DNA of 37,541 nt from contig CAIMXI010000432.1 of assembly GCA_903845365.1 (NCBI GenBank), positions 1-37,541 on the forward strand, given 5' to 3'. The notes under the pieces are model-generated. The model saw only the letters and a program-made list of their open reading frames with translations. It did not search any database and was not told the origin of the DNA. Source of the stretch: an uncultured Geobacteraceae bacterium. Its GTDB lineage: Bacteria > Desulfobacterota > Desulfuromonadia > Geobacterales > Pseudopelobacteraceae. Below are positions 6,994 to 37,541 of the stretch, piece after piece (position 1 is the first letter of the stretch; every line of letters begins with the position of its first letter). Position numbers and translations under genes: made by a program.

Positions 6994-10501
<3,508 letters not shown>

Positions 10502-10509
10502 CAGTAGTT

Positions 10510-13557: not shown

Positions 13558-13707
13558 ATGAAAAGAACATATCAGCCAAGTAATATATCCCGCAAGCGCA
13601 CCCATGGTTTCCTTGTAAGAATGGCCACAAAAAATGGCCGTCTGGTAATTAAGCGCAGAAGAGCAAAAGGGCGAAAAAATCTGGCAGTAAGAGTTTCTGC
13701 AAAGTAA
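13558..13707 (+). CDS. rpmH: 50S ribosomal protein L34
   Basis: A 49-residue, very basic ribosomal protein of the large subunit. The sequence starts [18 protein letters not shown] and continues [20 protein letters not shown], the highly conserved L34 pattern, ending VRVSAK. AGAGGT lies eight bases before the ATG. It is the first gene of the divergent plus-strand cluster and sits directly upstream of rnpA, as in most bacteria. Confidence 0.97.
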
Positions 13708-13717
13708 TTTATTCGAC

Positions 13718-14098
13718 GTGACTGTTGTTTCGACCGCCAAATTTCCCAAGAGCGCACGTTTGCGGAAGCGGGCTGAATTTCTTCAGCTTACTCCCGCTCA
13801 GCATAAATCAGTAGTTCGTGGTTTCCTGGTCGTGTGGCGTGAAAATAACTTACAAACGGCTCGTCTCGGTATTACTGCGAGCAAAAAAATAGGCTGTGCC
13901 GCTGTTCGTAACAGGGTTAAACGGTGTCTGCGTGAAATTTTCAGGCACAATCGCCTGGAGATGTCGGCAGTTGATCTTAATGTTATCGCCCGTCGAGAAT
14001 CGGCACTTATGACGTTTCCGGATATTGAGCGGGAACTCAAGAAGGTTCTTCATATAATAGGCTTGTCCCCATGTTCAAGAGCGGTTTGCTCCTCGTAA
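13718..14098 (+). CDS. rnpA: Ribonuclease P protein component
   Basis: The protein subunit that assists the RNase P ribozyme in maturing the 5' end of tRNAs. It is 126 residues. The N-terminal [13 protein letters not shown] and the RNR-type motif [15 protein letters not shown] are diagnostic. The chosen start is a GTG only 10 bp after rpmH, with no visible Shine-Dalgarno sequence, so it may be translationally coupled to rpmH; the exact start is uncertain. Its 3' end overlaps yidD by 28 bp. Confidence 0.94.
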
Positions 14099-14283
14099 TC
14101 AGGTTTTACCAGAAGGCGGTTTCACCACTTCTCCCTCAGACCTGCCGTTTTTATCCCTCCTGTTCCGAGTATTCCCGTGAGTCTTTAATTCGGCATGGTG
14201 TCGTCAGGGGTCTGAATCTTTCTGTGGGCAGAATATGTAAGTGTCATCCGTTTCATCCGGGCGGTCACGACCCGGTACCTTAA
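14071..14283 (+). CDS. yidD: Membrane protein insertion efficiency factor YidD
   Basis: A 70-residue member of the YidD family, thought to help YidC-dependent membrane protein insertion. It has the amphipathic N-terminal helix ([16 protein letters not shown]) and the conserved cysteine-rich core [11 protein letters not shown], followed by the GGHDPVP end. It overlaps the end of rnpA in another frame and is followed 34 bp later by yidC, the standard arrangement. Confidence 0.94.
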
Positions 14284-14317
14284 CAGATAAAGATCAAGTA
14301 GCACTCCGGGAGTTTAG

Positions 14318-15925
14318 ATGGAAAAGCGCGCTTTTATAGCAGTAGGTCTTTCAATAGCAGTTTTTTATCTGTTTTCCATGCTGTTTGGCCCGGATAAGCA
14401 GACAGTCGCACCCCCTGCCCCTCAGAGCGCTTCTTCAGTCACTAATAGTTCTGTTGTACCGAGTCAACCGCCGCCAGTATTCCAGACTCCTGTGCCAGAT
14501 AGCAGCAAATCTCTCCCCACAAACGTCGTGCAAAAAGTCATTACTGTGGAAACCGATCTTTACACAGCCCGAATTTCTTCTCGTGGAGCTAGTCTAAAGA
14601 GCCTGACACTCAAAAAATACCGCGAGGAAAACTCACCAGAATCGAAAAATGTAACTCTGGGAAACGACTCAGACCCCAATATTTATTCTTTTTCGACGCG
14701 CGCTTCCGGCTTTAATCTCCCCGATAACACGGACTTCATGGTTGATGCCAACAGCATTACAATTGAAAATGGTGGTACACGTCAACTAACGTTCAATTAT
14801 ATTTCCGGCCAGGGGTATACGGTTCGCAAAATATATACTTTTTCGGCCGGTGCGTACGGAATCAAACTTGAAACCCAAGTTTTTAACAACTCTGCTGCGC
14901 CCATTGTCGGGGCAATTCAGCACGTTATGACCTACCCGGCTGAGCCGAAAGTTAAAGACAACCGCTTTGACACCGCCGGAGCGTACCTCTTTTCTGATAA
15001 CAGCCTGCAAACGAATAAAATTAATGATGTTTCCTCTGCCTCAAAGCGCTACGAAAAGAGCATTCAGTGGTCCGGTTTTGCGGATAAGTATTTTTTGAAT
15101 GCAATTCTCGCAGAGAATAACAGTATTGCTTCTGTTGAGCTGAAAAAAAACAGCGCCGGTTTTTTTGAATCTATCGTTTCATCACCACAGTTGACCATCA
15201 ATCCTGGTCAGTCAGTCACTACTTCAAGCCGCCTGTTTGTTGGTCCCAAAGATCTTGATATACTCAAGGCTCAGGGCAATTCACTAGAGCAGTCACTTGA
15301 TTTGGGCTGGTTTACTGTAATAGCCAAGCCGCTGCTTTACTCACTGAAGTTTTTTTACGGCTATGTTGGTAACTACGGCGTTGCGATCATAATCATAACA
15401 ATTATTCTTAAAGCGTTCTTTTTCCCGCTCACCCACAAGAGCTACAAGTCTATGAAGGGTATGCAGAAAATTCAGCCTGAAATGGGAAAGTTGCGTGAGA
15501 AATATAAAGATGACAGAGATTCCATGAACAAGGCGGTTATGGAGCTGTATCGTGAGCATAAGGTAAACCCGATGGGGGGGTGCCTGCCGATGGTTGTTCA
15601 GATTCCGGTGTTTTTTGCGCTCTACAAGTCGCTGATGTTTTCTATAGAGCTTCGCCATGCCCCTTTCTTTTTGTGGGTTACCGACCTTGCGGATAAAGAC
15701 CCCTATTATGTTACTCCGGTTATTATGGGTATCACGATGTTCGTCCAGCAGAAAATGACACCTTCTCAAATGGATCCGATGCAACAGAAGATGATGTTGG
15801 CGCTGCCGGTGGTTTTTACCTTCATGTTTCTTAGCTTTCCTTCCGGTCTGGTACTCTACTGGCTGGTTAATAACGTGCTCACTATTGGCCAGCAGATGTA
15901 CATAAACAAGCTTGTAAAAGATTGA
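14318..15925 (+). CDS. yidC: Membrane protein insertase YidC
   Basis: The inner-membrane insertase and chaperone for membrane proteins, acting alone or with SecYEG. The 535 residues show the Gram-negative layout. An N-terminal membrane helix lies at about 5-24. A large periplasmic domain follows (about 60-330), beginning with a Pro/Ser/Gln-rich linker. The conserved C-terminal insertase domain from about 345 has several membrane helices and the cytoplasmic loop [20 protein letters not shown]. The NPMGGCLP motif and the [11 protein letters not shown] segment are typical. GGGAG lies about six bases before the ATG. No jag gene follows; mnmE begins about 23 bp downstream. Confidence 0.97.
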
Positions 15926-15948
15926 TTTCAGCCGGGAGTATTTTGTGT

Positions 15949-17316
15949 ATGTATATTCGTGACACGATAGCGGCTGTCAGCACCCCTCCCGGAAATGGCG
16001 GTATCGGCATAATCCGGGTCAGTGGAGACCAGGCATCCGTTGTCAGAAATACTGTTTTTAACTCTGTATCAGACGGTGGCCTTGTGAGCCACCGTTTTTA
16101 TTTTGGTATGATCTGCGATGCGGCGACCGGTGAAAAGGTAGACGAAGCGATGGCGGTATTTATGCGCTCTCCCCGCTCTTACACGCGTGAAGATGTTCTG
16201 GAGTTACACTGTCATGGCGGCTGGCTGGTCGTTGAACGTGTTTTGGCGTTAGTCCTCGCGTGTGGGGTTCGTCTGGCCGATCCTGGTGAATTTACGCGTC
16301 GTGCGTTTCTTAACGGGCGTATTGATTTGATACAGGCAGAAGCGGTAATGGATATCATTTCTTCAAAGAGTGAAGCTGCTCTTCATTTGGCGCAGAGTCA
16401 GCGGGAAGGAGCGCTTTCGAGGCGTATTGATGAGGTGAGGATGCACCTGCTTCAGGCTCTTGCGCTTGTTGAAACTTATATAGACTTTCCCGACGATGAT
16501 CTTGGCCAGACTGATGTTGTTGCTATTGCCGCTGCCGTTGAGACCGCTCAGGGCATGCTGTCCGTTCTTCTATCCACCTTTGAGGAGGGGCGAATAATTC
16601 GGGACGGGATCTCCGTGCTGATTGTCGGTAAGCCGAATGCCGGAAAATCGAGCCTGCTTAATCGTCTCCTCAACGAGAATCGCGCTATTGTCACCCATAT
16701 TCCCGGCACAACCCGGGATATAATTGAGGAAACAATCACTATTGAAGGGTTGGCCGTCCGGTTCCTGGATACAGCGGGTGTTCGCCATACCGAGGATCTG
16801 GTGGAACAGGAGGGGATCAATAGAACTCTGCAAAAAGTGACTCAGGCAGATCTTATCATTGCGCTGTTTGATGGCTCCAGTACATTTAGCCAGGAAGATC
16901 AGATGCTGTTGGATGCTATTTCCGGGCGGAAGATACTGGCCGTGATTAACAAGTCTGACCTTCCTCAGATCCTGACCATTCCCGATGAGAGCTGTTTTTT
17001 GGCCACTGTTGTTATATCGGCGCTATCAGGGTTTGGAGTCGATCAGCTTAAACATGTTATATGTCGGCTGTTTCTGCATTCTGCGACAGTTGATTCCCGT
17101 GAATTTATTGCTTTGTCCCGGGCCAGGCACAGGGATGCTCTTGTTTCTGCCGAAAGCCATATACGGCAATTTTCAGCCGGTCTTCAGGAGCGTAACCTGG
17201 AACTGCTTGCCTTAGACCTGCGTGCTGCACTGGATTCTGTTGCTGCAGTCACCGGCCAGACCGCTACGGACGAACTCCTTGACCTCATATTTTCTTCGTT
17301 TTGCATCGGCAAATAG
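15949..17316 (+). CDS. mnmE: tRNA modification GTPase MnmE
   Basis: A GTPase that, with MnmG, installs the carboxymethylaminomethyl group at wobble U34 of certain tRNAs. It is 455 residues. The N-terminal tetrahydrofolate-binding domain starts [19 protein letters not shown]. The inserted G domain has P-loop GKPNAGKS (227-234), GTTRD, DTAG and NKSD. The C-terminus is the catalytic CIGK. An in-frame upstream start overlapping yidC exists, but the ATG at 15949 has GGGAG about 10 bases upstream and gives the normal N-terminus. Its partner mnmG follows 45 bp later. Confidence 0.97.
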
Positions 17317-17361
17317 TGGTATTTTTCTCGTAGAACATTCTCTCTCCATCGGATTCTATAT

Positions 17362-19248
17362 ATGACTAGCTCTGATAGTATATACGATGTAATTGTCGTT
17401 GGCGCGGGGCACGCCGGTTGCGAAGCGGCACTGGCCTCTGCTCGTATGGGGTGTCGGACGATGCTGCTGACAATCAATTTAGACGCAATTGCCCTCATGT
17501 CGTGTAACCCTTCAATTGGAGGTTTGGCAAAAGGGCATTTAGTAAAGGAAATTGATGCCCTGGGCGGGGAAATGGCGAAAAATATTGATGCAACCGGCAT
17601 TCAGTTCCGCACTCTCAATATAAAGAAGGGACCTGCTGTGAGGGCTTCTCGCGCCCAGGCTGATAAGCAGCTTTATCGGCTTCGCATGAAAAGAGTGCTT
17701 GAGCAGCAGAAAAATCTTGACCTTAAACAGGGTGAGGTTACGTCTTTACTTCTGAATGACGCGGAGGTTCATGGTGTCAAGTTGCGATCCGGGATCAGTT
17801 ATCTCTCAAAAACGGTAGTTGTTACTACTGGAACATTCATGCGTGGTCTTATCCATGTCGGACTGAATAATTATCCTGGTGGCCGTGCTGGTGATCAGGC
17901 TTCCGTTGGTCTTTCAGATCAGTTGCGGGAATATGGCTTTCAAGTTGGTCGTTTGAAAACAGGAACACCAGCACGACTTGATGGCCGATCAATTGATTTT
18001 TCAAAACTTGAAACCCAGTTTGGCGATGACCCGCCGCGCCCTTTTTCATTTTCTACTGCGCGAATTACCATGCCGCAGTTACCATGCCATATTGCCTACA
18101 CGAACCTGCGCTCACATGATATCATTCGATCCGGCCTTGATCGTTCCCCTCTGTATTCAGGGGTAATAGAAGGTATTGGCCCTCGTTACTGTCCCTCAAT
18201 CGAGGATAAGGTTGTGCGCTTTCCAGATAAAGATCGTCACCAGACTTTTATCGAGCCTGAAGGTCTTGACACAATTGAAGTCTATCCTAGCGGGATGTCA
18301 ACATCGTTGCCGATTGATATTCAGATCGCTTTCTACCGTTCAATTGAAGGACTTGAACGTGTCGAAATAATGCGCCCGGCGTACGCAATCGAATATGATT
18401 ACGTTGATCCGATTCAACTTCACAGCTCGCTCGAAACAAAAAGAGTTAAAAATCTTTTTCACGCCGGTCAGATTAATGGAACTTCCGGTTATGAAGAAGC
18501 CGCTGGGCAGGGGCTTATTGCCGGCATCAATGCCGCTCATAAGGTGATGGGTAATGAACCTCTCGTGCTCTTGCGGAGTCAAGCATACATCGGCGTAATG
18601 ATCGATGATCTTGTGACTCTCGGCACTAAAGAGCCGTATCGCATGTTTACATCCCGAGCTGAATACCGGCTGTTATTGCGTGAAGATAATGCCGATCTGC
18701 GTCTGCGTGAGATAGGTTACCAGCTCGGCCTTGTTTCCGAACAGGAATACCTTCAGTTTGTTGAAAAGCGCTTCAAAATTGCAGCGGAGTTGGAGCGCAT
18801 CTCCATTACCCGTCTGCATCACAATCCAGAACAGGTTGAGATACTTGCCCGGCATGGTCTTAATGATATTCAGAAAGGTACAACTCTTGAGCAGCTACTC
18901 AAACGACCGGAAGTTTCGTACACAGATTTGGCTGATCTTGATTCTGTTTCACGTGAAACATCAGAAGTAATTCGTGATCAGGTTGAAATTCAGACCAAGT
19001 ATAAGGGCTATATTGATCGGCAACTAGAGCAGATAGAACAGTCAAAAAAACTCGAATCTACCCGCATTCCGGAAGAGCTTGATTACGCATCGATAAAGAG
19101 CCTGACTACGGAAGTTTATGAAAAATTGTCAAAATACAGACCAGATACTCTTGGTCAGGCATCAAGGATTCCCGGAGTTACGCCTGCGGCCATTTCTATT
19201 TTATCAATTGCTCTAAAATCCTCGTCGTGGAAGGATACTCGTGAATAA
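17362..19248 (+). CDS. mnmG: tRNA uridine-5-carboxymethylaminomethyl(34) synthesis enzyme MnmG
   Basis: The FAD-dependent partner of MnmE in tRNA wobble uridine modification. It is 628 residues, the normal length. The FAD-binding motif VIVVGAGHAGCEAA is at residues 10-23. The family blocks SCNPSIGGLAKGHLVKEIDALGG and the later QINGTSGYEEAAGQGL are present. The start at 17362 has only a weak ribosome-binding site, so translation may depend on upstream transcription and leader context. Its stop codon overlaps the start of rsmG by one base (TAATG), indicating translational coupling. Confidence 0.97.
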   Translation: MTSSDSIYDVIVVGAGHAGCEAALASARMGCRTMLLTINLDAIALMSCNPSIGGLAKGHLVKEIDALGGEMAKNIDATGIQFRTLNIKKGPAVRASRAQADKQLYRLRMKRVLEQQKNLDLKQGEVTSLLLNDAEVHGVKLRSGISYLSKTVVVTTGTFMRGLIHVGLNNYPGGRAGDQASVGLSDQLREYGFQVGRLKTGTPARLDGRSIDFSKLETQFGDDPPRPFSFSTARITMPQLPCHIAYTNLRSHDIIRSGLDRSPLYSGVIEGIGPRYCPSIEDKVVRFPDKDRHQTFIEPEGLDTIEVYPSGMSTSLPIDIQIAFYRSIEGLERVEIMRPAYAIEYDYVDPIQLHSSLETKRVKNLFHAGQINGTSGYEEAAGQGLIAGINAAHKVMGNEPLVLLRSQAYIGVMIDDLVTLGTKEPYRMFTSRAEYRLLLREDNADLRLREIGYQLGLVSEQEYLQFVEKRFKIAAELERISITRLHHNPEQVEILARHGLNDIQKGTTLEQLLKRPEVSYTDLADLDSVSRETSEVIRDQVEIQTKYKGYIDRQLEQIEQSKKLESTRIPEELDYASIKSLTTEVYEKLSKYRPDTLGQASRIPGVTPAAISILSIALKSSSWKDTRE

Positions 19249-19910
19249 TGAGTTTATCTATCGGTGACATAGTTGCGCAGGAGTCGCAATTAATCGGGCT
19301 ACCACTTACAGCTTCCGCAATAGAGGCGTTTGAGCGCTATGCTGCTGAACTAAAAAAATGGAACCTCAAGTTTAATCTGACTGCCATCACAAACGACAGA
19401 GAGATTGCAATAAAACACTTCCTTGATTCACTCATTATTGCTCCGCATCTAACTGTTGATGATCGTCTGCTTGATATAGGATCCGGTGCAGGGTTTCCGA
19501 TTATTCCGTTAAAAATAGTCAGGCCGGATGTATCTATGGTTTCCGTTGATGCCGTTGAAAAAAAAATCCATTTCCAACGACACATTATTCGACTTCTTGA
19601 TTTAAAAAAAATTGAAGCGGTTCATACACGCATTGAAGAGCTTCATAAAACTAAACTCAATTCATTTACTGTTATTACCTCACGTGCGTTTACCAGACTG
19701 GATCGTTTCGTTGCCCTGGCTGCTCCACTGCTTGCTGAAGGAGGAGTGCTGATTGCAATGAAAGGTGAGGAGGTGGAGTGTGAAGTTTCGGCTAGTGATA
19801 ATAGTCTGAAGGCCAGCGGCTTTACCGTTGCCTCGATTCAGCGCTATACACTGCCTGAAAACATGGGTGAACGGGTACTGACGTTCCTAAAGTCGAGCAA
19901 AGCCGCATAA
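19248..19910 (+). CDS. rsmG: 16S rRNA (guanine-N7) methyltransferase RsmG
   Basis: Methylates G527 (E. coli numbering) of 16S rRNA at N7, using S-adenosylmethionine. It is 220 residues. The SAM-binding motif LLDIGSGAGFPIIPLKI is at about 74-90, and the FNLTAI motif near residue 42 and the TSRAF block are typical of the GidB family. It is coupled to mnmG by a one-base overlap. In many bacteria parA and parB follow; here they do not. Confidence 0.96.
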   Translation: MSLSIGDIVAQESQLIGLPLTASAIEAFERYAAELKKWNLKFNLTAITNDREIAIKHFLDSLIIAPHLTVDDRLLDIGSGAGFPIIPLKIVRPDVSMVSVDAVEKKIHFQRHIIRLLDLKKIEAVHTRIEELHKTKLNSFTVITSRAFTRLDRFVALAAPLLAEGGVLIAMKGEEVECEVSASDNSLKASGFTVASIQRYTLPENMGERVLTFLKSSKAA

Positions 19911-25139: not shown

Positions 25140-26735
25140 TCACATACCCCACAAAAAAACTTTCCTGCCATCCACCGTTTTCTCCAGCTCCCAGATTCTG
25201 TCATCCCACACCTTTTCACCATCGCGGTCAAAAATAAGAAGGTGCGCCTCGTCCGCGCCGCAGGTGGCGGCGTAGGATGCGGTTTGTACCACACCACTGG
25301 CGATGGTGGCTTCCAGTCCTTTGCGCTGGATCTTCAACTCCAGCACAATCCGCTGCATCGATCCGCGAAAAAGCAAAACAGGGTCAAGAGGCCATTCGAG
25401 ATAAAGATCCATTCGCTTCATGCCAAGGCCGTATTCGCGGGTAATGCGACCACCACCATTGATAATCCGCTGCAAAAAAGCCTGTAACAACAGTTGCGGC
25501 CCCGCCTCCTTGTACTGGAATTTTTCGATCCAGGCATCGGCATTCTCTCTGAAAAACTGCTGAAACGCCCGCAACAGTTTCGGCATGTCAAGACGGTTAT
25601 CGGCGGTGGTGTACCAGGGGAGGTCGTGGACTATGCTTTTCTGGGTCGCCCAGGTCAGTTCGCGCGGAATGACTTCCTGATAAATCGCGTTGCTGATGCG
25701 TATCTGCTTGTCAAGAGTTATCAGCCCCATGTCCTGAACGTATTGCAGATCATCGAGCGGAGTGTTTATCGCGTCCCCTTCACCAGCCAGAACTTCGGAG
25801 ATAACACGGTGAACACGAGGTTCCTGAAGTTTATCGGTTAGCTGTTCCAGGTGGGTGGCCCGGCTCAGTATTAGACGTTCGCGCGCCTCCCTGTACAACT
25901 CTACATCGATGGTGCGTGTACGATCTTTGCCGGCTTCCATATAAAAACATGCTTCCTGTCCCAGAGCATTGACCAGCCAGGGTTGACCTGCGGTATCTTT
26001 CCAGAGCAGCTCGAATACTTCCTCGTCAAAGCGTTGCCCGGTTTCAGTCGTGTGCTGTTCAAAAAGTTTGCGACAGTCGGCCTGGCTGAAATTACCCAGA
26101 CGCAGAGATTTTGCCTTGACATTGAAGGCGGAGCCGCCGGTTATGATCTCGCCGCCACCGGTGTGGATACGATAGTCTCTAACGTCACGAACACCGCAGA
26201 GAATAACGGATGTTGGGAAATTGTCGGGGCGGTCATTGTAGCCGGAGCGGAGCTGGCGCAGCACCGATATGAGAGTATCACCCACCAGAGCGTCGATCTC
26301 GTCGAGAAAAAGTACGGTGGGTCTGGCAGGGTCATTTTGCGTCCATCTACGGAGAAGTTCCAGAAGAGCCGCATTGTGGCCGTTCTCATTGAAAATTCCA
26401 AGCCAGGCATCCGCAGTTGTCGCGTCGCGAAGATGCATGCGAAGCGAGGAGGCGACGCTGCTGCAGACCGTCCGTATTCCCTGTGACACATCGTTTCTTG
26501 CCGTCTGAGCTGTTTCAATGTTGGCGTAAATGGCTCGATAGCGCCCCTGTGTGTTAAGATACTTCATCAATGAGATGAGGCAGGTGGTTTTACCGGTCTG
26601 GCGGGGGGCATGCAGGACAAAATATCTTTTCGCCTCTATCAGCGATAATATTTCAGCAAGATTTATTCGGGTCAGAGGATCAACACGATAATGATCGCCC
26701 GCAACGCTTGGTCCTGCCGTATTGAATTGTAGCAT
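25140..26735 (-). CDS. AAA-type ATPase with C-terminal PD-(D/E)XK nuclease-like domain
   Basis: A 531-residue protein of unknown biological role. The N-terminal part resembles the AAA-like ATPases often seen in accessory regions. The P-loop APRQTGKTT is at 43-51 and Walker B VLFLDEID at 141-148, followed by a typical winged-helix-like middle region. The C-terminal 100 residues look like a PD-(D/E)XK nuclease fold: Asp443 in MKRMDLYLEW, then Glu466-Leu-Lys468 in RIVLELKIQRKG, then a Gln484-containing helix. No transposase, toxin or restriction partner is adjacent, so it is an orphan. A GTG start five codons upstream is possible, but the ATG at 26735 has GGTGGAG nine bases upstream. It is convergent with maeB. 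A defence or DNA-processing role is only a guess. Confidence 0.8.
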   Translation of the reverse strand: MLQFNTAGPSVAGDHYRVDPLTRINLAEILSLIEAKRYFVLHAPRQTGKTTCLISLMKYLNTQGRYRAIYANIETAQTARNDVSQGIRTVCSSVASSLRMHLRDATTADAWLGIFNENGHNAALLELLRRWTQNDPARPTVLFLDEIDALVGDTLISVLRQLRSGYNDRPDNFPTSVILCGVRDVRDYRIHTGGGEIITGGSAFNVKAKSLRLGNFSQADCRKLFEQHTTETGQRFDEEVFELLWKDTAGQPWLVNALGQEACFYMEAGKDRTRTIDVELYREARERLILSRATHLEQLTDKLQEPRVHRVISEVLAGEGDAINTPLDDLQYVQDMGLITLDKQIRISNAIYQEVIPRELTWATQKSIVHDLPWYTTADNRLDMPKLLRAFQQFFRENADAWIEKFQYKEAGPQLLLQAFLQRIINGGGRITREYGLGMKRMDLYLEWPLDPVLLFRGSMQRIVLELKIQRKGLEATIASGVVQTASYAATCGADEAHLLIFDRDGEKVWDDRIWELEKTVDGRKVFLWGM

Positions 26736-26977
26736 TTTTATTTTCTCCACCGTTCACGTAACCTTGCCTGTTCTCGAAGGAATTTGCTTTTTTTAGAGAG
26801 GTAGAAAGTACACCCGCCACAAGGTACTGTCAATGCAATTTGACACGATTTGAGAGGGTTCAGGTTGATCAAATAGCTGGATTCATGGCAAGCCGAATGG
26901 TATACGTACACTTTCCGTTGATCCTAAAGAAACAGTTTCACTCAACGACGCAACGTAACTTTAAAGTGGAGATGTAA

Positions 26978-28023: not shown

Positions 28024-29328
28024 TCAGTTCAATCTTCCTCTCTGCGTACCGCGCTTCTCGAATATCCGCAGGATGACAAATGTCACCCAGGCCACAATCA
28101 CCAGGCCGACAGTAAAGATAGTATATGACAAGGGCCACGGGATGTCCTTGGTCATCATCGAAAACTCGGACATGCCACCGATGCCGGCAATCACGTTGAG
28201 CGGCATGAAAATGACGCTGAGCACCGTCAGGCGGTAGATAACCCGGTTCTGGTTGATATTGATGAAACCGACCGTGGCATCCATCAGGAAGTTGATCTTG
28301 TCGAACAAAAAGGCGGTATGTCCATCCAGCGATTCGATATCGCGCAGAATCTGCTGGGCATCTTCAAGCTGATCGGCAGAAAGAAGCTTCCTACGGATCA
28401 GGAAGGTAAGCGCTCTCCTGGTATCAAGCACGTTCCTGCGGATGCGGCCGTTCAAATCCTCTTCTTCGGCGATGCCCGCCAGAATTCTGGCCGCATCCTC
28501 GTCGCTCATGGCTTTGTTGAGTACCTGTTTGCCGACTTTGCCGAGGGAAGAATAAATCTCTTCCAGAGAATCTGCAGAATATTCCACGTCGGCAGCGTAC
28601 AAGTCCAGCAGCATACCCATGCCGTCAGAAACATACCCGGCTTGAATACGAGCGCGCAGTCGCTGTAGACGGAAGACCGGCAACTCTTCCGCGCGCACCG
28701 AAAAGAGGATTTCATGGAACAGGATAAACGCAACAGGAACGTTGCGGGAGTCCCCTTCGCGATCGAGCAGAAAGTCTGAATGCAGGTGAATTTCGTCGTT
28801 TTCTTCCACGTAGAAACGGGCGCTCGATTCAATATCGGTAAGGTCTTCCGGGTCTGGGAGCTCCAGCCCAAAATATTGTCCGATTTTGCGACGATCCGCT
28901 TTGGTCGCCCCGACCAGATCGACCCAGATCGGTTTTATCCCTTCCAGATCTTCAACCGATTCGATGGTGATCTGGGTCAAGCGCCCCTGCGCCAGCTCGA
29001 AGGCGTTCACCACGCATGCGGAGCCAAGGTAGCTGCTGCGACTGGCGAGAGTATCCCTGGTCGCATCCGACACGTCATCAAGGATTGCATCCACTCGATT
29101 TTCATCGATTTGCCCCCAGACAAGAAAAAGATCCTCTGGGGAAAGACCATCAAGAATCTCAGCGATTTCGGAGGATTCAAGCCTGGCAAACAGCAGGCGC
29201 AGCTCGACAAGATGCTGCTTCTGCACCATGTTTTCCACCAGATCGTGGCGCGGCATTGCCTGCCTGTTAACCATCTCCTCAACAAGCCTATGTTTTGACA
29301 ACAAATCCTGAACGGTTTTTAGTGGCAT
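28024..29328 (-). CDS. CorA-family divalent cation transporter with MgtE-like N-terminal domain
   Basis: A 434-residue predicted Mg2+/Co2+-type transporter. Residues about 20-95 (HLVELRLLFARLESSEIAEILDGLSPEDL and on) resemble the superhelical N domain of MgtE channels. The middle is a CorA-like soluble domain (PIWVDLVGATKAD, then the EDLTDIESSARFYVEEND block). The C-terminus has two membrane helices at about 362-381 and 399-421, preceded by the long CorA stalk helix. The CorA signature Gly-Met-Asn is replaced by Gly-Met-Ser (GIGGMSEF, residues 385-387). The ATG at 29328 was preferred to a TTG seven codons upstream. It converges on the exchanger gene with only 29 bp between stops and no terminator visible. 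Confidence 0.85.
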   Translation of the reverse strand: MPLKTVQDLLSKHRLVEEMVNRQAMPRHDLVENMVQKQHLVELRLLFARLESSEIAEILDGLSPEDLFLVWGQIDENRVDAILDDVSDATRDTLASRSSYLGSACVVNAFELAQGRLTQITIESVEDLEGIKPIWVDLVGATKADRRKIGQYFGLELPDPEDLTDIESSARFYVEENDEIHLHSDFLLDREGDSRNVPVAFILFHEILFSVRAEELPVFRLQRLRARIQAGYVSDGMGMLLDLYAADVEYSADSLEEIYSSLGKVGKQVLNKAMSDEDAARILAGIAEEEDLNGRIRRNVLDTRRALTFLIRRKLLSADQLEDAQQILRDIESLDGHTAFLFDKINFLMDATVGFININQNRVIYRLTVLSVIFMPLNVIAGIGGMSEFSMMTKDIPWPLSYTIFTVGLVIVAWVTFVILRIFEKRGTQRGRLN

Positions 29329-29703
29329 GACAGCACATCCCTTGCACAAAAACTCTCGTGAAGCAATTGATCAGCTACACGCTGAATGAATACCTGAGAT
29401 ATCAGAGAAAAACAAGTCTGCAGTCATCAGGGGGCAGGTTAAACTTAGATTAAGCTTCCAGATTTCTGTTGATTGGGGGGGACAATTATTTTTTTTGGAG
29501 TATGCAGCTCATATATTGACGCGGCCGTAACAATGTGAGATTGTGCATTTTTGCATAACTTCAAAATCATCCCTCATCCGCCCTATCGGGCACCTTCTCA
29601 CTAAAGGAGAAGGGACAAGACAGGGTTTTGGTATCGCCACAATCAGCTAACTGGACAACACTTTAAATAGTCGTAATAACTCACTGTCAGAGGATACTTC
29701 TTT
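29329..29703. other. Intergenic region upstream of the giant receiver/kinase gene
   Basis: A 375-bp spacer between divergent genes. It contains a G-run and T-run (29474-29496), a dispersed-repeat-like hairpin element (29571-29615) and a possible but weak promoter, TTGACG at 29516-29521 with a poor -10. No protein-coding frame is convincing. Confidence 0.5.
29571..29615. repeat. REP-like intergenic hairpin element
   Basis: The sequence CCCTCATCCG-CCC...GGGCACCTTCTC...GAGAAGGG forms two small stems (GCCC/GGGC at 29580-29591 and CCTTCTC/GAGAAGG at 29593-29613). It resembles dispersed intergenic repeats of the CCCTCATCC...GAGAAGGG type found in many proteobacterial genomes. Only one copy is seen in this window. 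Confidence 0.55.
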
Positions 29704-32700
29704 ATGGGAAAATCAGATCAGGGCATGGACACGCTTCATCCGCACATACTGGTTGTCGATGACGAATTGGATATGTGTTGCATGATGGCGAACTATCTAA
29801 AGAGGAGCGGTTATAAAGTGGACATGGCCTGTAATGCGGCTGATGCCTACAGTATGGTTGAAGACGGGCAGTATCAAGCCGTCGTGAGCGATATAAAAAT
29901 GCCGGGTGAAGACGGCATTTCGCTCCTCACCCGTATCCTAAAAAACTGGCCGGAGACTCCGGTCGTCCTGATGGCCGACCAGAACGATAGCCAGTTGATG
30001 CAGGCCGCCATAAAGCATGGTGCATTCGATTCCATCCAAAAGCCCCCCGATTTTGTACATCTGGAAAAAATAATTGAACGCGCGGTCAAGTACAGCAGGC
30101 TGCAGCGTCTGGAAAAAAATTACCATGCCGAGATTGAAGAGGCCGTTGTCGAGCGGGCGCTTGAGTCGGAGAGGGCCGCTGCGCGGTTACGGACAGAACT
30201 TGCCGAGCGCAACAGTGCCGAAGAGCGGTTACGGGCTGAATATGCCGAGCGGCAGAAGTTGGAAAGCAGCCAGCAACAGGCTGCGGCAGAGCGTGCATCA
30301 GAATTGCAGAGTGCCATTGAGCAGCTTTCGGCTGAGATTGCCGAGCGCAAGGCTGCTGAAGAGAAACTGATGCAGGAGAGGGCTGCCGCTGAAGCGGTTA
30401 ATGAACAGCTCCAGGCTGAACTGGCTGCCGAGCGGAAACAGGCCGAAGCCGGTGTTGCGCAGCTTCAGGCTGAGATTGCCGAGCGGTTGCAGTTGGAGGA
30501 GAGCCTGCAGCAGAGCTCTTCAGAGCGTGCGTTGCAGTTGCAGGCAACCATTGAGCAGTTGCGGACTGAACTTGTTGAGCGCAAAGAAGTTGAAAAACAA
30601 CTTGAGCAGGTCTGGAATGCCGCCGAGGCTGCCAATGAACAGATGAGGATTAAGCTTGCGGAGCGGAAGCAGGAATCTCAGACGATCACAGAACAGTTGC
30701 AGATTGAATTTGCCGAGCGCCAGGCGGCCGAAGAACGGATGATGCAGGCAGAGATAGCTGCCGAAGCGGCCAACAGGCAGTTACAGGCCGAGATTGGCGA
30801 GCGGCAGCAGTTGGAAACCAGCCTGCAGCAGACAGCAGCAGAACGCATGTCGGAATTGCAAACGGTTGTTGAAAACTTAAAAGCGGAACTTGCCGCCGAG
30901 CGGACTCAAGCAGAAGAGCAACTGAAACAGACTCGTTTAACTGCGGAAGCTGCCATTGAACAGTTGGAGGTGCAGCATGCCGAGCGGAAGCAGGAATGGC
31001 AAAATGTCACCGAACAGTTGCAGGTTGAATTTACCGAGCGCCAATCTGCCGAAGAGAAGTTGAAGCAGGCTGAGACAACTATCGAAGCACTCAACAAGCA
31101 GCTGCAGGCTGAGATAGAGCGGTTGCAGAGTGAACGTGCTGCCGAGCAAAAAGCGGTCGAGGAGCTGTTGGAGCAGACACAAGTGGCCGCTGAAGATGCC
31201 GTTAAGCAGATGGAGGCGAAGAATGCCGAGCTGAAGAGGGAGTGGCAGACCGTTGCCGAACAGTTACAGACCGAATTTACCGAGCGCCAGTTAGCCGAAG
31301 AGAAGCTGGAACTGGCCAGGAAAGCCGCCGAAGCGGCAGATGTAGAGATGCAGGCCAGGCTTGCCGGGCGGCAGCAAGAATTACAGACGGTCTCTGAGCA
31401 GTTGCAGACTGAATTTGCCGAGCGCAAGGCCGCCGAGGAGCGACTGGAGCGGGCCAGGCTGGACGCCGAAACGACCATTGAACATCTGCATGAAGAACTT
31501 GCCGATCACAAACGATCCGAAGAGAGCCTGGAGAAGGCGAGACTCGCCGCTGAAGCTGTCATTGAACAGTTGCGGTCGGGCCTTGATGGTGAACGTAACC
31601 AGCGAAGCCAGGTGGAATTCAGGCTGGAAGCGACCGCTACCGAGCGCAGGCAGGTAGAGAGCAGACTTGCGCAAACCGTTGCAAAACGTACTGAGGAGTT
31701 GGCGAAAGTCAACGAAGAGCTGCAGGCCAAACGTGAGGAGCAGAAACAGACTGAAGAGGTACTGGAAAAGGCGAGAGTTGAGGCCAAAGCAGCCCTTGAA
31801 CAGGTGCATTCTGAGCTTGCCGAGCAGAAGCTGGCGGAGAGTCGACTGGAACAGACAGTTGCAGAACGGACCGAGGAGTTGGCGAATGCCAACGAACAGC
31901 TCCAGGCCGCACGCAAAGAGCAGAAGCAGACTGAAGAAAGATTGGAACAGGCCAGAGTGGAAGCCAAAGCCGCGCTTGACAAGATACAGTCTGAGCTTGC
32001 TGCCGGACGCACTCAACTCGAAATTGCCAACGAGCAGTTGCAGGCTGAGCGTATCGGGCGCAAAGATACCGCCGAGCGGATGGAACAGGCCAAGTTGGCC
32101 GCAGAGGCAGCAGCTAAGGCCGCCGCTGAAAAGTTCCAGGCTGAGCTTGCCAAGCGGAAGAAGGCGGAGGATCGACTTGAGCAGGCGGTTGCAGAACGAA
32201 CCGAAGAGTTGGAAGCCGTAAGCGAACAGCTTCAGGCTAAACGTGACGAGCAAAAACAGACTGAAGAGCGGATGGAAAATGCCCTGTTAGCCGCAGAAGC
32301 CGCCGCTGAAAAGTTCCAGGCTGAGCTTGCTGAGCGGAGGGAGGCGGAGAGCGGTCTTGAGCAGACAGTCGCGGAGCGGACGCAGGAATTGGCCAGTATG
32401 AATGAACGGCTGGAGTCGGAACGTGCTAAGAACAGTGAGGCATTAGAAGAGCTGACTCAGTCCTGGATGGCTGTAGAAGCAACCAATGAACGGCTGCAGG
32501 CCGAACTTGCTGCAGAGCGCGAGGATGCCGAAAAACGGCTGGAAAATGCCCGGTTGGCCGCAGAAGCCGCCGCTGAAAGGTTTGAGGCTCAGCTTGCCGA
32601 GCGGAGAGAAGCAGAAAGTCGCCTTGAGCAGACCGTCTCAGAGCGTACCGAAGAGTTGGCAGTCGTCAACGGACAGTTGCAGGATAAACGTGATGCGCTT

Positions 32701-35700
32701 AAACAGATTCAAGAGCAGATGGAGCAGGCCAGATTGGCCGCTGAGGCCGCTGCTGAAAGGTTCCAGGCTCAGCTTGCCGAGCGGAGAGAAGCGGAAAGTC
32801 GTCTGGAACAGACCGTTGAAAAACGTACTCAAGAATTGGAGAGTGCCTACGAAGAGTTGCAGAGCGAGCGTGACGAGCGGAATCGAGTGGAGTTCAGGCT
32901 GGAAACAACAGCGACAGAACTGACTCAGGAGCTGACGACAGTCAACGATAGGTTGCAGGCTACGCGTGACGAGCTTAAACAGACCGGAGAGCGGATGGAA
33001 GAGGCCAGGTTGGCCGCTGAGGCCGCCGCTAAAGCCGCCGCTGAAAAGTTCGCGTCTGAACTTGCCGATTGGAGGAAGGCGGAAAGTCGCCTTGAGCAAA
33101 CCGTCGCAGAGCGGAACGAGGAGTTGGCAACCGTCAACGGACAGTTGCAAGCTGAACGTGACGCGCTTAAACAGACTCAAGAGCAGATGGAACAGGACTG
33201 GTTGGCCGCTGAGGCTGCCGCTGAGATGTTTGAGGCTCAGCTTGCCGAGCGTAGAGAAGCGGAAAATCGCCTTGAGCAGACAGTAGCAGAACGGACGGAG
33301 GAGTTGGCAACCGTCAACGAACAGTTGCAAGCAAATCGTGACGAGCTTAAACAGACTGAAGAGCGGATGGAGCAGGCCAGGTTGGCTGCTGATGCCGCTG
33401 CTAAAGCCGCCTCTGAGAAGTTCGAGGCGGAGCTTGCCGAGCGGAGAAAGGCGGAAAGTACTCTTGAGCAGACTGTTGCAGAACGGACTCGGGAATTATC
33501 GACCGTCACCGGGCAACTTCAGTTCGAAACCATCTTGCGCAAAGATACTGAAGCACGGCTGGAAAAAAACAGGTTGGCCGCTGAAGCCGCCTCTGAAAAA
33601 TTCAAGGCGGAGCTTGCCGAGCGTAAGCAGGCGGAAGGCAGGCTTGAGCAGACAGTAGCAGAACGGACCGCGGAGTTGGCGACAGTCAACGGCCAGTTGC
33701 AGGCCAAACGTGACGAGCTTAAACAGACAGAAGAGCGGATGGAAGAGGCAAGGCTGGCTGCTGAGGCCGCAGCTAGCGCCGCCGCTGAAAAGTTTGCTTC
33801 TGAGCTTGCCGAGCGGAGAGAGGCAGAAAGTCGCCTTGAGCAGACGGTTGTAGAGCGAACCGAGGATCTGGCGACAGTCAACGGACAGTTGCAGGCCAAG
33901 CGTGATGAGCTTAAACAGAGTGAAGAGCGAATGGAAGAAGCAAGGTTGGCTGCAGAGGCTGCAGCTTCAGCCGCTGCTGAAAAGTTCGCGGCTGAGCTTG
34001 CCGAGCGGAGAGAGGCGGAAAGTCGCCTTGAGCAGACCGTTACTGAGCGGACTGAAGAGTTGGCTTCAGTTAACGGCCAGTTGCAAGCTGAGCGTGACGG
34101 GCATAAGCAGACTCAAGAGCGGATGGAAGAGGCCAGGTTGGCTGCAGAGGCCGCAGCTTCAGCCGCCGCTGAAAAGTTTGCGTCTGAGCTTGCCGAGCGG
34201 AGAGCGGCAGAAAGTCGCCTTGAGCAGACGGTTGTAGAGCGTACAGGGGAGTTGGCGACAGTCAACGGACAGTTGCAGGCTAAGCGTGATGAGCTTAAAC
34301 AGAGTGAAGAGCGGATGGAAGAGGCAAGGTTGGCTGCAGAGGCTGCAGCTTCAGCCGCCGCAGAAAAGTTTGCGGCTGAGCTTGCCGAGCGGAGAGAGGC
34401 GGAAAGTCGCCTTGATCAGACCGTTGCAGAGCGTACCGGGGAGCTGGCTACCGTCAACGATAAGTTGCAGGCTACGCGTGATGAGCTTAAGCAGACCGAA
34501 GAGCGGATGGAAGAGGCAAGGCTGGCCGCAGAGGCCGCCGCTAAAGCCGCCGCTGAAAAGTTCGCATCTGAGCTTGCCGAGCGGAGGGAAGCGGAAAGTC
34601 GCCTTGAGCAGACAGTCGCAGAGCGTACCGGGGAGTTGGCGTCAGTCAACGAACAGTTGCAGGCCAAACGTGACGAGCTTAAACAGACCGAAGAGCGGAT
34701 GGAGCAGGCCAGACTGGCAGCAGAGGCCGCCGCCAAAGCCGCCGCTGAAAAGTTCGCATCTGAACTTGCCGAGCGGAGGGAGGCAGAAAGTCGTCTTGAG
34801 CAGACCGTCGCAGAACGGACCGGGGAGTTGGCAACGGTCAACGAACAGTTGCAGGCCAAACGTGACGAACTTAAACAGACTGAAGAGCGGATGGAGCAGG
34901 CCAGACTGGCTGCAGAAGCCGCAGCAAAAGCCGCCGCTGAGAAGTTTGCGTCTGAGCTGGCCGAGCGGAGAGATGCGGAAAGTCGCCTTGAGCAGACCGT
35001 CGCAGAGCGTACCGAGGAGTTGGCTACAGTCAACGGTCAGTTGCAGGCCAAGCGTGACGAACTTAAACAGACTCAAGAGCGGATGGAGCAGGCTAGACTG
35101 ACTGCAGAGGCCGCAGCTAAAGCCGCTGCTGAAAAGTTTGAGTCAGAACTTGCCGAGCGAAGAAAGGTGGAAAGCGCTCTTGAGCAGACAGTCGCTGAGC
35201 GTACCGGTGAGTTGGCAACAGTCAACGAGCAGTTGCAGGCCAAGCGTAACGAGCTTAAACAGACTGAAGAGCGGATGGAACAGGCAAGGTTGTCTGCTGA
35301 GGCTGCCGCAAAAGTCGCCGCTGAAAAGTTTGCGGCTGAGCTTGCCGAGCGCAGGGATGCAGAGAGTCGTCTTGAGCAGACGGTTGCAATACGTACTCAG
35401 GAATTGGCTGCAGCCAACGAACAGTTGCAGAACGAGCGTGACGAGCGGAATCGAGTGGAATTCAGACTGGAAACGACTGCCGCAGAGCGGAAGCAGGAGT
35501 TCGAGACGGTAGTTGCTCAACTCAATAAAGAGCTTGCCGAGCATAAGGAAGCGGAAAGCCGCCTTGAACAGAGAGTTGCGGAGCGCACTGAGGAGTTGGC
35601 GACCGTCAACGGGCAGTTGCAGGCTAAACGTGACGAGCATAAACAGACTGAAGAGATATTGGAACAGGTTCGACTTGCCGCCAAAGCAGCTCTCGAAAAG

Positions 35701-37541
35701 ATACAGTCCGAGCTTGCCGCAGAACAGGCGGAGCTCGAATCTATCAACGGCAAGTTGCAGGCCGAAACCACCTTGCGCAAATATACTGAAGAACGGCTGG
35801 AGCAGGCCAGGCTGGCTGCTGAAGCTGCCGCTGAAAAGTTCCGGGTTGAGATTGCCGAGCGGAGAGAGGCGGAAGGCAGGCTTGAGCAGACAGTTGCAGA
35901 GCGGATACAGGAGCTGGCAACAGTCAACGGCCAGTTGCAGGCCGAAACCAGCTTGCGCAAAAATACTGAAGAGCGACTGGAACAAGCAAGGCTGGCCGCA
36001 GAAGCCGCTGCAGATAAGTTCAGGACTGAGCTTGCTGAGCGGAGAGAGGCGGAAAGCAGGCTTGAACAGTCGGTTGCAGAACGGACTCAGGATTTGGCCG
36101 CCGTCAACCTGCAGTTGCAGGCCAAACGTGACGAGCTTAAGCAGACTGAAGAGCGGATGGAGCAGGCCAGACTGGCCGCCGAGGCTGCAGCCAAAGCCAC
36201 AGCCGAAAGTTTCGAGACTCAGCTTGCCGAGCGTAGGCAGGCGGAGAGAGCCCTGGAACAGAGGGCTGCGGAACGGAATCAGGAATTGGCATCCGTAAAG
36301 GAACAACTGCAGACCGAAATCATTGGACGCAGAGATACCGAAGAGCGTCTGGAACATACCAGAGATCTGATGGAAGAAGCCAGGGTGACCGCCGAAGCCG
36401 CTGCCAAAGTGGCCGCTGAAAAGTTCCAGGCTGAGCTTGCCGAACGGAGACTGGCGGAGCGCCTCCTTGAAGAGAAGGTTGCAGAACGGACTAAGGAGCT
36501 TGAGAGTCTAAACGTACAGTTGCGAGTTGAAACCACCAGGCGCAGAAACAGTGAAGAGGCGCTGGAACAGGCCAAGCTGGCCTCTGAAGCCGCCGCTGAA
36601 AAGTTCCAGACTGAGCTTGCCGAACGGAGGCAGGCAGAAAGCATCCTTGAACAGAAAGTTACTGAACAGAGCGAGGAACTGGCGACGGTCAGCGGGCAGT
36701 TGCAGGCCGAAACCACCAAGCGCAAAAACACCGAAGAGATGCTGGAACAGGCCATGAAAGCCACTGAAGCAGTTGTTCAGCAGTTGCAGGACGAACTTGC
36801 CGAACATAAAGCCGCAGAAGAGCAACTTGCTCAGTCTAGACTGGAAGCAGCAGCCATCAGCGAAAAGTTGAAGGCGGAACTTGCCGAGCGGAGAGAGATA
36901 GAAAGCAATCTGGAGCAGACGAAGGCCTTCTCCGACAGATTGTTTAATGCATCACCAGATACGCTGCTGCTGTTCGATCCGGAGACAGGCAAACCGATCA
37001 GATGGAACAAGAGCTTTGCCGAAGTGAGCGGATACGATGACAAAGAGATTCCTCTTATGAAAGCTCCGAAAGATTTTTATGAGGAGGTCCTTCCCAACGG
37101 CACAATGCCGGCATTGCTTGATGTCTCCACCGGAAAGAAAAAGTTTGCCGAACTGATAATGCACACCAAGAACGGTACGCGTATTCCGTACGAGTGTGGT
37201 GTCACGGTTATTAAAACCAGAGAGGGTAAACCTCTGCTCATGCCGGTGGGAAGGGACGTCACCGGCCGCAGGACCAAGAGCGCAATACTTGCCAATATGA
37301 GCCGAGAAATACGTACGGAAACGAACGGCATCATCAACATGAACGCGTTTCTGCTTGAGACCGCTCTGTCCAATGAACAGCGCAATTATGCCCAGATAGC
37401 TCACAGAAGCGGCGAGAGCCTTCTCGAATACATAAACGATATCGTCAGTTTCTCGAATATCGAGGCGGGTATTCTGGAGATTGTGAAACAGGACTTTGAT
37501 TTTAAAGACCTGCTGGATGAAGCCACCGAAATTCTAAACGC
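29704..37541 (+). CDS. Giant receiver - coiled-coil - PAS - HisKA-like signalling protein (partial, 3' end beyond the window)
   Basis: One frame of 2,612 complete codons with no stop before the edge. AGAGGA lies nine bases before the ATG. Residues 14-130 are a response-regulator receiver: Asp19-Asp20, phospho-acceptor Asp63 in SDIKMPGEDG and Lys113 in QKP are present, but the conserved Thr/Ser is Ala91 (VVLMADQ). Residues about 135-2405 are an apparently proline-free, Glu/Ala/Gln/Arg-rich coiled coil made of variants of ELAERRxAESRLEQTV, AERTEELATVNxQLQ and AxRDELKQTEERMEQARLAAEAA. Residues about 2408-2525 form a PAS domain (LFNASPDTLLLFD, WNKSFAEVSGY, PVGRDVTGR). A HisKA-type helix pair follows (ILANMSREIRTETNGII, then SLLEYINDIVSFSNIEAG); Arg2534 replaces the phospho-acceptor His. 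Any ATPase domain lies beyond the window. It is probably a signalling scaffold, function unknown. Confidence 0.85.
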   Translation, partial: MGKSDQGMDTLHPHILVVDDELDMCCMMANYLKRSGYKVDMACNAADAYSMVEDGQYQAVVSDIKMPGEDGISLLTRILKNWPETPVVLMADQNDSQLMQAAIKHGAFDSIQKPPDFVHLEKIIERAVKYSRLQRLEKNYHAEIEEAVVERALESERAAARLRTELAERNSAEERLRAEYAERQKLESSQQQAAAERASELQSAIEQLSAEIAERKAAEEKLMQERAAAEAVNEQLQAELAAERKQAEAGVAQLQAEIAERLQLEESLQQSSSERALQLQATIEQLRTELVERKEVEKQLEQVWNAAEAANEQMRIKLAERKQESQTITEQLQIEFAERQAAEERMMQAEIAAEAANRQLQAEIGERQQLETSLQQTAAERMSELQTVVENLKAELAAERTQAEEQLKQTRLTAEAAIEQLEVQHAERKQEWQNVTEQLQVEFTERQSAEEKLKQAETTIEALNKQLQAEIERLQSERAAEQKAVEELLEQTQVAAEDAVKQMEAKNAELKREWQTVAEQLQTEFTERQLAEEKLELARKAAEAADVEMQARLAGRQQELQTVSEQLQTEFAERKAAEERLERARLDAETTIEHLHEELADHKRSEESLEKARLAAEAVIEQLRSGLDGERNQRSQVEFRLEATATERRQVESRLAQTVAKRTEELAKVNEELQAKREEQKQTEEVLEKARVEAKAALEQVHSELAEQKLAESRLEQTVAERTEELANANEQLQAARKEQKQTEERLEQARVEAKAALDKIQSELAAGRTQLEIANEQLQAERIGRKDTAERMEQAKLAAEAAAKAAAEKFQAELAKRKKAEDRLEQAVAERTEELEAVSEQLQAKRDEQKQTEERMENALLAAEAAAEKFQAELAERREAESGLEQTVAERTQELASMNERLESERAKNSEALEELTQSWMAVEATNERLQAELAAEREDAEKRLENARLAAEAAAERFEAQLAERREAESRLEQTVSERTEELAVVNGQLQDKRDALKQIQEQMEQARLAAEAAAERFQAQLAERREAESRLEQTVEKRTQELESAYEELQSERDERNRVEFRLETTATELTQELTTVNDRLQATRDELKQTGERMEEARLAAEAAAKAAAEKFASELADWRKAESRLEQTVAERNEELATVNGQLQAERDALKQTQEQMEQDWLAAEAAAEMFEAQLAERREAENRLEQTVAERTEELATVNEQLQANRDELKQTEERMEQARLAADAAAKAASEKFEAELAERRKAESTLEQTVAERTRELSTVTGQLQFETILRKDTEARLEKNRLAAEAASEKFKAELAERKQAEGRLEQTVAERTAELATVNGQLQAKRDELKQTEERMEEARLAAEAAASAAAEKFASELAERREAESRLEQTVVERTEDLATVNGQLQAKRDELKQSEERMEEARLAAEAAASAAAEKFAAELAERREAESRLEQTVTERTEELASVNGQLQAERDGHKQTQERMEEARLAAEAAASAAAEKFASELAERRAAESRLEQTVVERTGELATVNGQLQAKRDELKQSEERMEEARLAAEAAASAAAEKFAAELAERREAESRLDQTVAERTGELATVNDKLQATRDELKQTEERMEEARLAAEAAAKAAAEKFASELAERREAESRLEQTVAERTGELASVNEQLQAKRDELKQTEERMEQARLAAEAAAKAAAEKFASELAERREAESRLEQTVAERTGELATVNEQLQAKRDELKQTEERMEQARLAAEAAAKAAAEKFASELAERRDAESRLEQTVAERTEELATVNGQLQAKRDELKQTQERMEQARLTAEAAAKAAAEKFESELAERRKVESALEQTVAERTGELATVNEQLQAKRNELKQTEERMEQARLSAEAAAKVAAEKFAAELAERRDAESRLEQTVAIRTQELAAANEQLQNERDERNRVEFRLETTAAERKQEFETVVAQLNKELAEHKEAESRLEQRVAERTEELATVNGQLQAKRDEHKQTEEILEQVRLAAKAALEKIQSELAAEQAELESINGKLQAETTLRKYTEERLEQARLAAEAAAEKFRVEIAERREAEGRLEQTVAERIQELATVNGQLQAETSLRKNTEERLEQARLAAEAAADKFRTELAERREAESRLEQSVAERTQDLAAVNLQLQAKRDELKQTEERMEQARLAAEAAAKATAESFETQLAERRQAERALEQRAAERNQELASVKEQLQTEIIGRRDTEERLEHTRDLMEEARVTAEAAAKVAAEKFQAELAERRLAERLLEEKVAERTKELESLNVQLRVETTRRRNSEEALEQAKLASEAAAEKFQTELAERRQAESILEQKVTEQSEELATVSGQLQAETTKRKNTEEMLEQAMKATEAVVQQLQDELAEHKAAEEQLAQSRLEAAAISEKLKAELAERREIESNLEQTKAFSDRLFNASPDTLLLFDPETGKPIRWNKSFAEVSGYDDKEIPLMKAPKDFYEEVLPNGTMPALLDVSTGKKKFAELIMHTKNGTRIPYECGVTVIKTREGKPLLMPVGRDVTGRRTKSAILANMSREIRTETNGIINMNAFLLETALSNEQRNYAQIAHRSGESLLEYINDIVSFSNIEAGILEIVKQDFDFKDLLDEATEILN
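33601..35430 (+). repeat. 192-bp in-frame tandem repeat array inside the giant coiled-coil gene
   Basis: Using the phenylalanine codon of the A-x-E-K-F motif as anchor, copies start at 33601, 33793, 33985, 34177, 34369, 34561, 34753, 34945, 35137 and 35329. This gives nine successive steps of exactly 192 bp (64 codons). Upstream and downstream copies are 180 bp (60 codons) or irregular; in the cases compared, the 12-bp difference is a missing A-A-(K/S)-A tetrapeptide. Copies are very similar in DNA sequence, implying recent duplication or gene conversion. Confidence 0.9.

Follow-up and report, generated by a model that had tools for sequence, protein, structure and literature searches.

Near the end of a contig from an uncultured Geobacteraceae bacterium, one open reading frame joins a receiver domain to PAS and kinase-like domains through more than two thousand residues of predicted coiled coil, which raises the question of whether such a gene is real and, if so, whether its product is a signalling enzyme with an inflated linker or a rod that holds two ends apart. 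The window (the whole stretch of DNA analysed, 37,541 bp) is an entire contig (C432) of a 5.5-Mb draft genome (G000) in 511 contigs; window coordinates refer to the forward strand unless stated otherwise. The frame, at 29704-37539, is open for 2,612 codons and leaves the contig at its end. Its start at 29704 is supported by similarity, lining up with orthologues cut at the matching Met. The upstream neighbour is a divergent gene for a CorA-like Mg2+ transporter (28024..29349, reverse strand), which lies outside the system and marks its 5' boundary; promoter and terminator scans of 29300-29800 found none.

The remainder of the gene was located by a search of the same genome, in which contig C189 matches the last 30 residues of the window product at 100% identity. 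The end of the window and the end of C189 share an exact overlap of 93 bp (37449..37541), and C189 extends the frame by 449 residues, counted from codon 2583, up to a stop codon. The giant gene thus comprises codons 1-2612 in the window (29704..37541) and a 3' part on C189 (L021, reverse strand, 4757 down to 3408), and its completed product has 3,031 aa, a mass of about 341 kDa and a pI of 4.8. The original prediction of an uninterrupted frame of more than 2,612 codons is hence borne out, at 3,031 aa once C189 is added, and the stop, HATPase and receiver that it proposed to seek downstream are all found on C189, together with an Hpt-like region. An assembly artefact, whether a repeat array wrongly extended or two genes joined, is a reading to which the draft state of the genome lends something, as does the fact that four of the five orthologues described below end at contig ends within the spacer. 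However, the longest exact DNA repeat within the gene is 44 bp, and it is the sole repeat of 40 bp or more, so that a collapsed or inflated array is unlikely, since short-read assembly should keep such units apart; furthermore, the frame continues in phase through the exact 93-bp overlap, and one orthologue (G023) has a single uninterrupted frame of like kind inside a 198-kb contig. Mis-assembly of the repeat, the danger named with the original prediction, is therefore unlikely, and we regard an artefact of either kind as scarcely credible.

The domain order of the completed protein is a first receiver (REC1), a proline-free coil of 2,278 residues, PAS, HisKA, HATPase, a second receiver (REC2) and the Hpt-like region. 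REC1 occupies residues 15-124 (29746..30075; Pfam Response_reg, 5.5e-24), with its phospho-accepting Asp and Lys present and Ala in place of the conserved Thr/Ser. The coil follows at residues 128-2405 (30085..36918), and then a PAS domain at residues 2412-2520 (36937..37263), where PAS_9 (2420-2520, 8.6e-6) and PAS_8 (2412-2451) each score 0.6 bit below the gathering score. HisKA is matched at residues 2525-2589 (37276..37470; 1e-8, 35.5 bits), and the part on C189 adds HATPase_c (3.5e-18), REC2 (2.4e-25) and the Hpt-like region, which at 22.2 bits falls just below the Pfam cut-off of 24.6. The receiver, PAS and HisKA-like domains originally proposed accordingly find support in Pfam, for PAS from models just short of their cut-offs.

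Residues 128-2405 contain no proline at all, all 16 prolines of the window frame being at residues 13-115 or 2418-2514. Fourier analysis of hydrophobicity over the 2,278 positions gives a peak at a period of 3.548 with a power of 116, where the maximum of 30 shuffles is 8.9. Along the coil the local phase departs from its mean by no more than about 80 degrees, so that one hydrophobic phase runs from end to end; the prediction of a coil of some 2,270 residues was close. The repeat units are mostly 64 and 60 residues long, and landmark motifs are spaced mostly at 64, 60 and 46 aa; by simple arithmetic, 64 residues equal 6 heptads plus 2 hendecads and 60 residues equal 7 heptads plus 1 hendecad. 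Measured against the helical period, the 27 distances that separate 28 landmark motifs have an rms deviation of 32 degrees; in a null of 2,000 draws, each with random shifts of at most 5 residues, the mean is 106 and the lowest value 73. Part of this phase coherence is a consequence of the compatible lengths of the tandem units. An AF2 model of a 300-aa piece of coil, made without an alignment, is helical (mean pLDDT 84.9) and forms two helices with a break at residues 167-175; given this break and the 29 Gly within residues 301-2400, the rod may have joints. With a rise of 0.15 nm per residue, arithmetic predicts a length of up to about 0.34 micrometre for the coil.

The position of the coil suggests how it arose. 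Paralogues in the same genome have 46-50% identity in REC1 and share the first residues of the linker (LQR.E.NYH.E), after which PAS begins within some 40 residues. One of them (L023) has REC followed by PAS; another (L024) has REC at 43-152 and PAS from 189, keeps its HisKA and HATPase motifs intact, and contains additional receivers as well as an HD domain. Since the paralogues have a short REC-PAS linker with the same beginning, the giant coil occupies the place of an ordinary linker. Within the coil is a recently amplified array of 64-aa units (192 bp; 384 bp) at 32938..35446. Across residues 1088-1900, 22 of 26 windows of 96 bp have a counterpart elsewhere in the same coil at 85-95% identity, and none of the 26 exceeds 75% identity to the coil of G030 or G023. 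This difference between self-identity and identity to relatives indicates that the middle of the coil was amplified recently in this lineage; the N-terminal part often resembles G023 at least as closely as it resembles itself. As read from these genes, the comparison shows a REC-PAS linker, short in the paralogues, that has reached 2,278 residues via in-register tandem duplication. Among described linkers the nearest is the S-helix, a dimeric element of histidine kinases that likewise joins signalling domains and is reported to have around 40 residues, mostly 5 heptads (PMC1592074). The giant coil, beginning in a REC-PAS linker also present in paralogues, has some 57 times that length.

Using the C-terminal part as query, five orthologues from the same genus stand out at 56-74% identity, all in records of metagenome-assembled genomes labelled Geobacteraceae or Desulfuromonadales. 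The only one with a single uninterrupted frame is that of G023, with 2,502 codons (2,490 aa when counted from the Met equivalent to the start at 29704); its product has REC1 and the same C-terminal head, and two additional PAS domains lie within its coil. The other four end at contig ends, and N-terminal halves that start with REC1 are located at other contig ends of the same genomes. On the assumption that these halves belong together and do not overlap, they would give proteins of about 3,000 (G030), 2,940 (G013), 3,740 (G004) and 1,450 (G020) residues, or more; no exact end overlap of at least 12 bp was found between the halves, and those of G030 share 24 bp a few bases in from their ends. 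Stretches of spacer that pass the PAS_9 threshold on their own number six in L029 and three in L030 (the C-terminal halves from G013 and G004), the conserved PAS possibly included, and the C-terminal half from G030 has one spacer PAS besides the conserved one.

Within the genus, 25 of 39 genomes have a match at E <= 1e-120, and a match reaching from PAS to Hpt is present in five only, in addition to the split gene of the window's genome; across 141 genomes of the order no other genus passed 1e-160. A scan of an 84,980-species collection with two short peptide patterns, which is not exhaustive, returned 35 loci, five of which are these orthologues. Of the 35 loci, the analysis drew on the five that are nearly full length, at 59-100% identity to the first row of the query, and on the ORF of L058; the latter lies on a contig titled Methanoregula and encodes a multi-PAS protein of other architecture. 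The H boxes of the remaining 29 are not part of the counts below. Long predicted spacers between the same heads recur, and among the genomes seen only that of the window has a pure predicted coil of 2,278 residues. The idea of a physical spacer therefore stands in part: the uninterrupted, register-preserving coil fits it, as do long spacers between the same end domains in the orthologues, but the orthologue coils are interrupted by PAS domains.

Evidence on the nature of the protein is found in its head. In the alignment of the six orthologues (this gene included), the PAS domain is conserved throughout and the phospho-accepting His of HisKA is Arg in every case; in the giant the codon for Arg2534, its position counted by hand, is at 37303..37305, and the H box reads ANMSREIRTETN where close paralogues have A.MSHEIRTPMN. 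Across the orthologues the box is ANMSREIRT(E/Q)TN, against the same A.MSHEIRTPMN in ordinary kinases. The G2 box is likewise YGDASLGLAM in 6/6 compared with YGGTGLGL in ordinary kinases, two glycines being gone. The Hpt His is replaced in four of the six (Asn in G000 and G023, Glu in G030, Thr in G020); G013 and G004 keep it, with the following Lys absent, and their Hpt passes the Pfam cut-off. Sister kinases retain these residues wherever they are covered: in nine loci picked among the highest-ranked matches, rather than every match, His and GGTGLGL are present in 10/10 HisKA segments and the Hpt His in all 8 that reach Hpt, while one sister locus (L066) has a stop codon within the H box. 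A pattern scan of the loci found 22 H boxes, all with His, some of them from overlapping loci of one gene; the pattern is blind to the giant itself, whose box starts TKS.

Other features of the head have been kept. The N box and the Asp and glycines of G1 are retained, so that ATP binding is possible; the active-site motifs of REC2 are intact in 6/6, and in REC1 the Asp is present in 5/6 (Asn in G020), the Lys in 6/6 and the Thr in 3/6, being gone in G000, G023 and G030. For the HATPase-REC-Hpt part, dN/dS (Nei-Gojobori) between this gene and the five orthologues is 0.16-0.21, the larger values being rough because dS is high (0.85-2.2); PAS-HisKA gives 0.17 in comparison with G030, and the pair G013 and G004 gives 0.04. 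AF2 modelled the PAS and pseudo-HisKA pair poorly (mean pLDDT 50); the best solved sequence match of the head is a hybrid kinase, 6qrj, and DivL (4q20) is also among the matches.

With Arg in place of His and a broken G2 box in six genomes, the kinase module very probably cannot phosphorylate anything. Sequence features that distinguish a pseudo-histidine kinase are present, namely a recognisable fold (HisKA 1e-8, HATPase 3.5e-18) and a replaced His whose replacement is conserved, and of the parts of an active hybrid kinase the receiver is there, the catalytic His is absent and the HATPase boxes are broken at G2. It could be argued that the protein is nonetheless an active hybrid kinase working in an ordinary REC-PAS-HK-REC-Hpt phosphorelay, its coil the product of neutral repeat growth. 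The domain order is that of such a kinase, the coil derives from recent duplication and varies in length, the N box and G1 Asp are kept, and G013 and G004 have an Hpt His. We nevertheless judge this very unlikely, because His has given way to Arg and the G2 box is broken in every orthologue, the Hpt His has gone from most of them, and the sister segments preserve precisely these residues. More improbable still, in our estimation, is a decaying gene, whose kinase has died and whose repeat is drifting before loss. The lost catalytic residues and the substitutions at the REC1 Asp (G020) and Thr (G000, G023, G030) are what decay would produce; one open frame of 3,031 codons and the low dN/dS ratios speak against it, as do the same dead motifs maintained in six genomes alongside an intact REC2. 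Judged from its motifs, the giant's kinase is apparently dead yet conserved under purifying selection, and the protein is most likely a binding rod rather than an enzyme. The original prediction, which tied a phosphorylation input to a distant sensor and had missed the loss of the HisKA histidine, needs correction on this point. A standalone Hpt gene downstream in G000 was considered as a substitute for the lost Hpt His and set aside, as a motif scan of the orthologue loci (L026-L030) found none; there is another Hpt-like gene at L080 of G023.

We know of no receivers and no giant coil in DivL of Caulobacter, and the giant, with two receivers and its coil, differs from it in both respects. The likeness is in the head: DivL is described as combining PAS with a DHp/CA core that has a non-phosphorylatable residue at the histidine position, and this core, under PAS control, can read a phosphorylated response regulator (PMC4211667). 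The residue there is given as Tyr, or Ala in Magnetospirillum (PMC4211667), whereas the giant has Arg in 6/6 and a broken G2 box besides; with neither Tyr nor Ala at the site it is not a DivL orthologue. Hybrid kinases have the same HisKA-HATPase-REC module order, from which the giant departs by lacking the catalytic His and G2 glycines, and in 4/6 the Hpt His.

On balance we consider that the giant is probably a DivL-like pseudo-histidine kinase borne on a coiled-coil rod, with a role as scaffold or tether. Parallel coils would dimerise into a rod of up to about 0.34 micrometre that separates two terminal binding heads, one made of REC1 and one of PAS, pseudo-kinase and REC2, each of which would bind its own partners. 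The dead kinase core may, as in DivL, dock or read a phosphorylated response regulator, and REC2 could be phosphorylated in trans by an intact kinase of the same genome. Against a scaffold it must be counted that coil length varies, that PAS domains interrupt the spacers of relatives and that the recent amplification could be neutral.

For the opposite end of the protein the closest comparison is with FrzS and AglZ, which to our knowledge have no C-terminal PAS or kinase head. Like the giant, both are described as having an atypical N-terminal receiver followed by a coiled coil; FrzS of Myxococcus xanthus moves between the poles, an example of polar placement governed by an atypical receiver attached to a coil (PMC1974792). 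The coil reported for FrzS has 258 residues (PMC1974792), against 2,278 in the giant, and the FrzS receiver lacks the Asp that REC1 keeps in 5/6. The giant ends in HATPase, REC and an Hpt-like region, and so does not belong with proteins defined by an Asp-less receiver and a C-terminal coil.

These comparisons bear on another reading, that the giant forms filaments, its dimers lying side by side in bundles of intermediate-filament type with the receivers regulating assembly, as in FilP or AglZ. AglZ itself forms filaments; FilP and crescentin are not known to have signalling heads and are far shorter than the giant. A very long and nearly continuous heptad/hendecad rod would suit such a role, FilP and crescentin are bacterial coiled-coil rods described as forming filaments (PMC2680258), and the domain structure of AglZ is described as like that of FrzS (PMC1974792). 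Yet the coils of the orthologues are broken by PAS domains, which a jointed tether accommodates better than a bundle, and we consider filament formation unlikely. A narrow search of open-licence literature found no paper on a giant coiled-coil histidine kinase, or on a pseudo-histidine kinase with a coiled coil and a receiver; the architecture is new and its modules are known. A linker of normally some 40 residues here makes up the bulk of the protein, and the kinase that it served is apparently switched off yet conserved. Hence, the giant offers a natural test of how a signalling helix may be lengthened without loss of register, and of whether pseudo-histidine kinases can act as binding heads in long-range cell scaffolds.

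The tether may have a partner. A ParA-type ATPase (ParA1, AAA_31) is found at 78% identity or more in exactly the six of 39 congeneric genomes that have the giant, and at a threshold of 1e-60 three other genomes have ParA matches at just 45-46%. In G023, G030 and G020 the genes for FeoB, DtxR-FeoA and the giant stand in a row on one strand, and ParA1 is divergent, adjoining FeoB about 3 kb from the start of the giant; in G000, G013 and G004 the two genes are not neighbours. Where the genes after ParA1 are visible, in five genomes, they encode first an uncharacterised protein and next a protein with a receiver, a spacer and a transmembrane segment (REC-spacer-TM), whose closest relatives (46-64% identity) are in these six genomes; relatives at 27-40% are more widespread, 33/39 genomes having some match at 1e-8. 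On a GidA tree that includes 37 of those 39 genomes, the six giant-bearing ones occupy three separate positions; branches with good support require no more than two changes. The label is clustered, a value as low arising in 1 of 500 shuffles, and a single clade for the six is disfavoured at p-AU 0.041, a value from one gene with unsettled bootstrap. The co-occurrence of the giant with ParA1 therefore represents at most three independent events, and the ParA link is a lead, which supplies a concrete candidate partner.

On a more tentative extension of the scaffold reading, the rod would belong to a cell-positioning apparatus with the ParA-type ATPase and the membrane-anchored REC-spacer-TM protein. 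The specific form of this proposal, a molecular ruler or tether of about 0.3 micrometre, capped at each end by two-component modules of which the kinase is dead, that positions something in the cell together with these two proteins, is possible, though we hold it as doubtful. Were it true, a single polypeptide would reach physically across a large fraction of the cell as part of a bacterial positioning apparatus, and its length would evolve by in-register duplication.

Several observations were made on the surroundings of these genes. The ParA cluster of G023 (contig C3; L079:7971-11257 and L079:1804-3532) contains the ParA-type ATPase, the uncharacterised protein and the REC-spacer-TM protein, and in G000 and G023 there are additionally a second ParA-like ATPase and a DUF697 protein. 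A magnetosome context, considered because FeoB is nearby, was rejected, the HtrA-type protein at L079 scoring 204.6 bits against a MamE cut-off of 800. A second long-coil protein, on contig C503 of G000, was rejected as a partner rod in all six genomes, its orthologue in G004 and G013 being Pro-rich and having no long coil. This C503 protein (L022:2096-7045, reverse strand; L082:3092-7996, reverse strand) has about 1,634 aa with 990 proline-free residues, and a hydrophobic helix near the C terminus together with a C-terminal domain; the phospho-accepting Asp of its receiver is Glu (MERLMP) in G000 only and Asp in the four orthologues read, the G020 copy being excluded.

The window also contains a replication-origin neighbourhood at 6994-19910 (gyrB, recF, dnaN, dnaA, yidC, gidA and rsmG/gidB), with one perfect parS-like 16-mer within gidA (18945-18960; 0.03 matches expected at up to 2 mismatches); parA is absent among the genes scanned after gidB in the window. 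An AAA_35-type ATPase gene is located at 25140-26750 on the reverse strand, with a malic enzyme/PTA gene on one side and a Na/Ca exchanger on the other. Directly after the giant in G000, G023 and G030 is a gene for a protein of 231-236 aa (L021:2533-3243, reverse strand; L027:9008-9703; L026:5403-6107), the G030 and G000 copies having 49-55% identity to that of G023; no Pfam family was found in the G023 copy, and the G000 copy has only matches below cut-off. Finally, the 5.5-Mb genome G000 has at least 150 receiver-domain matches, 150 of 306 candidates having been scored.
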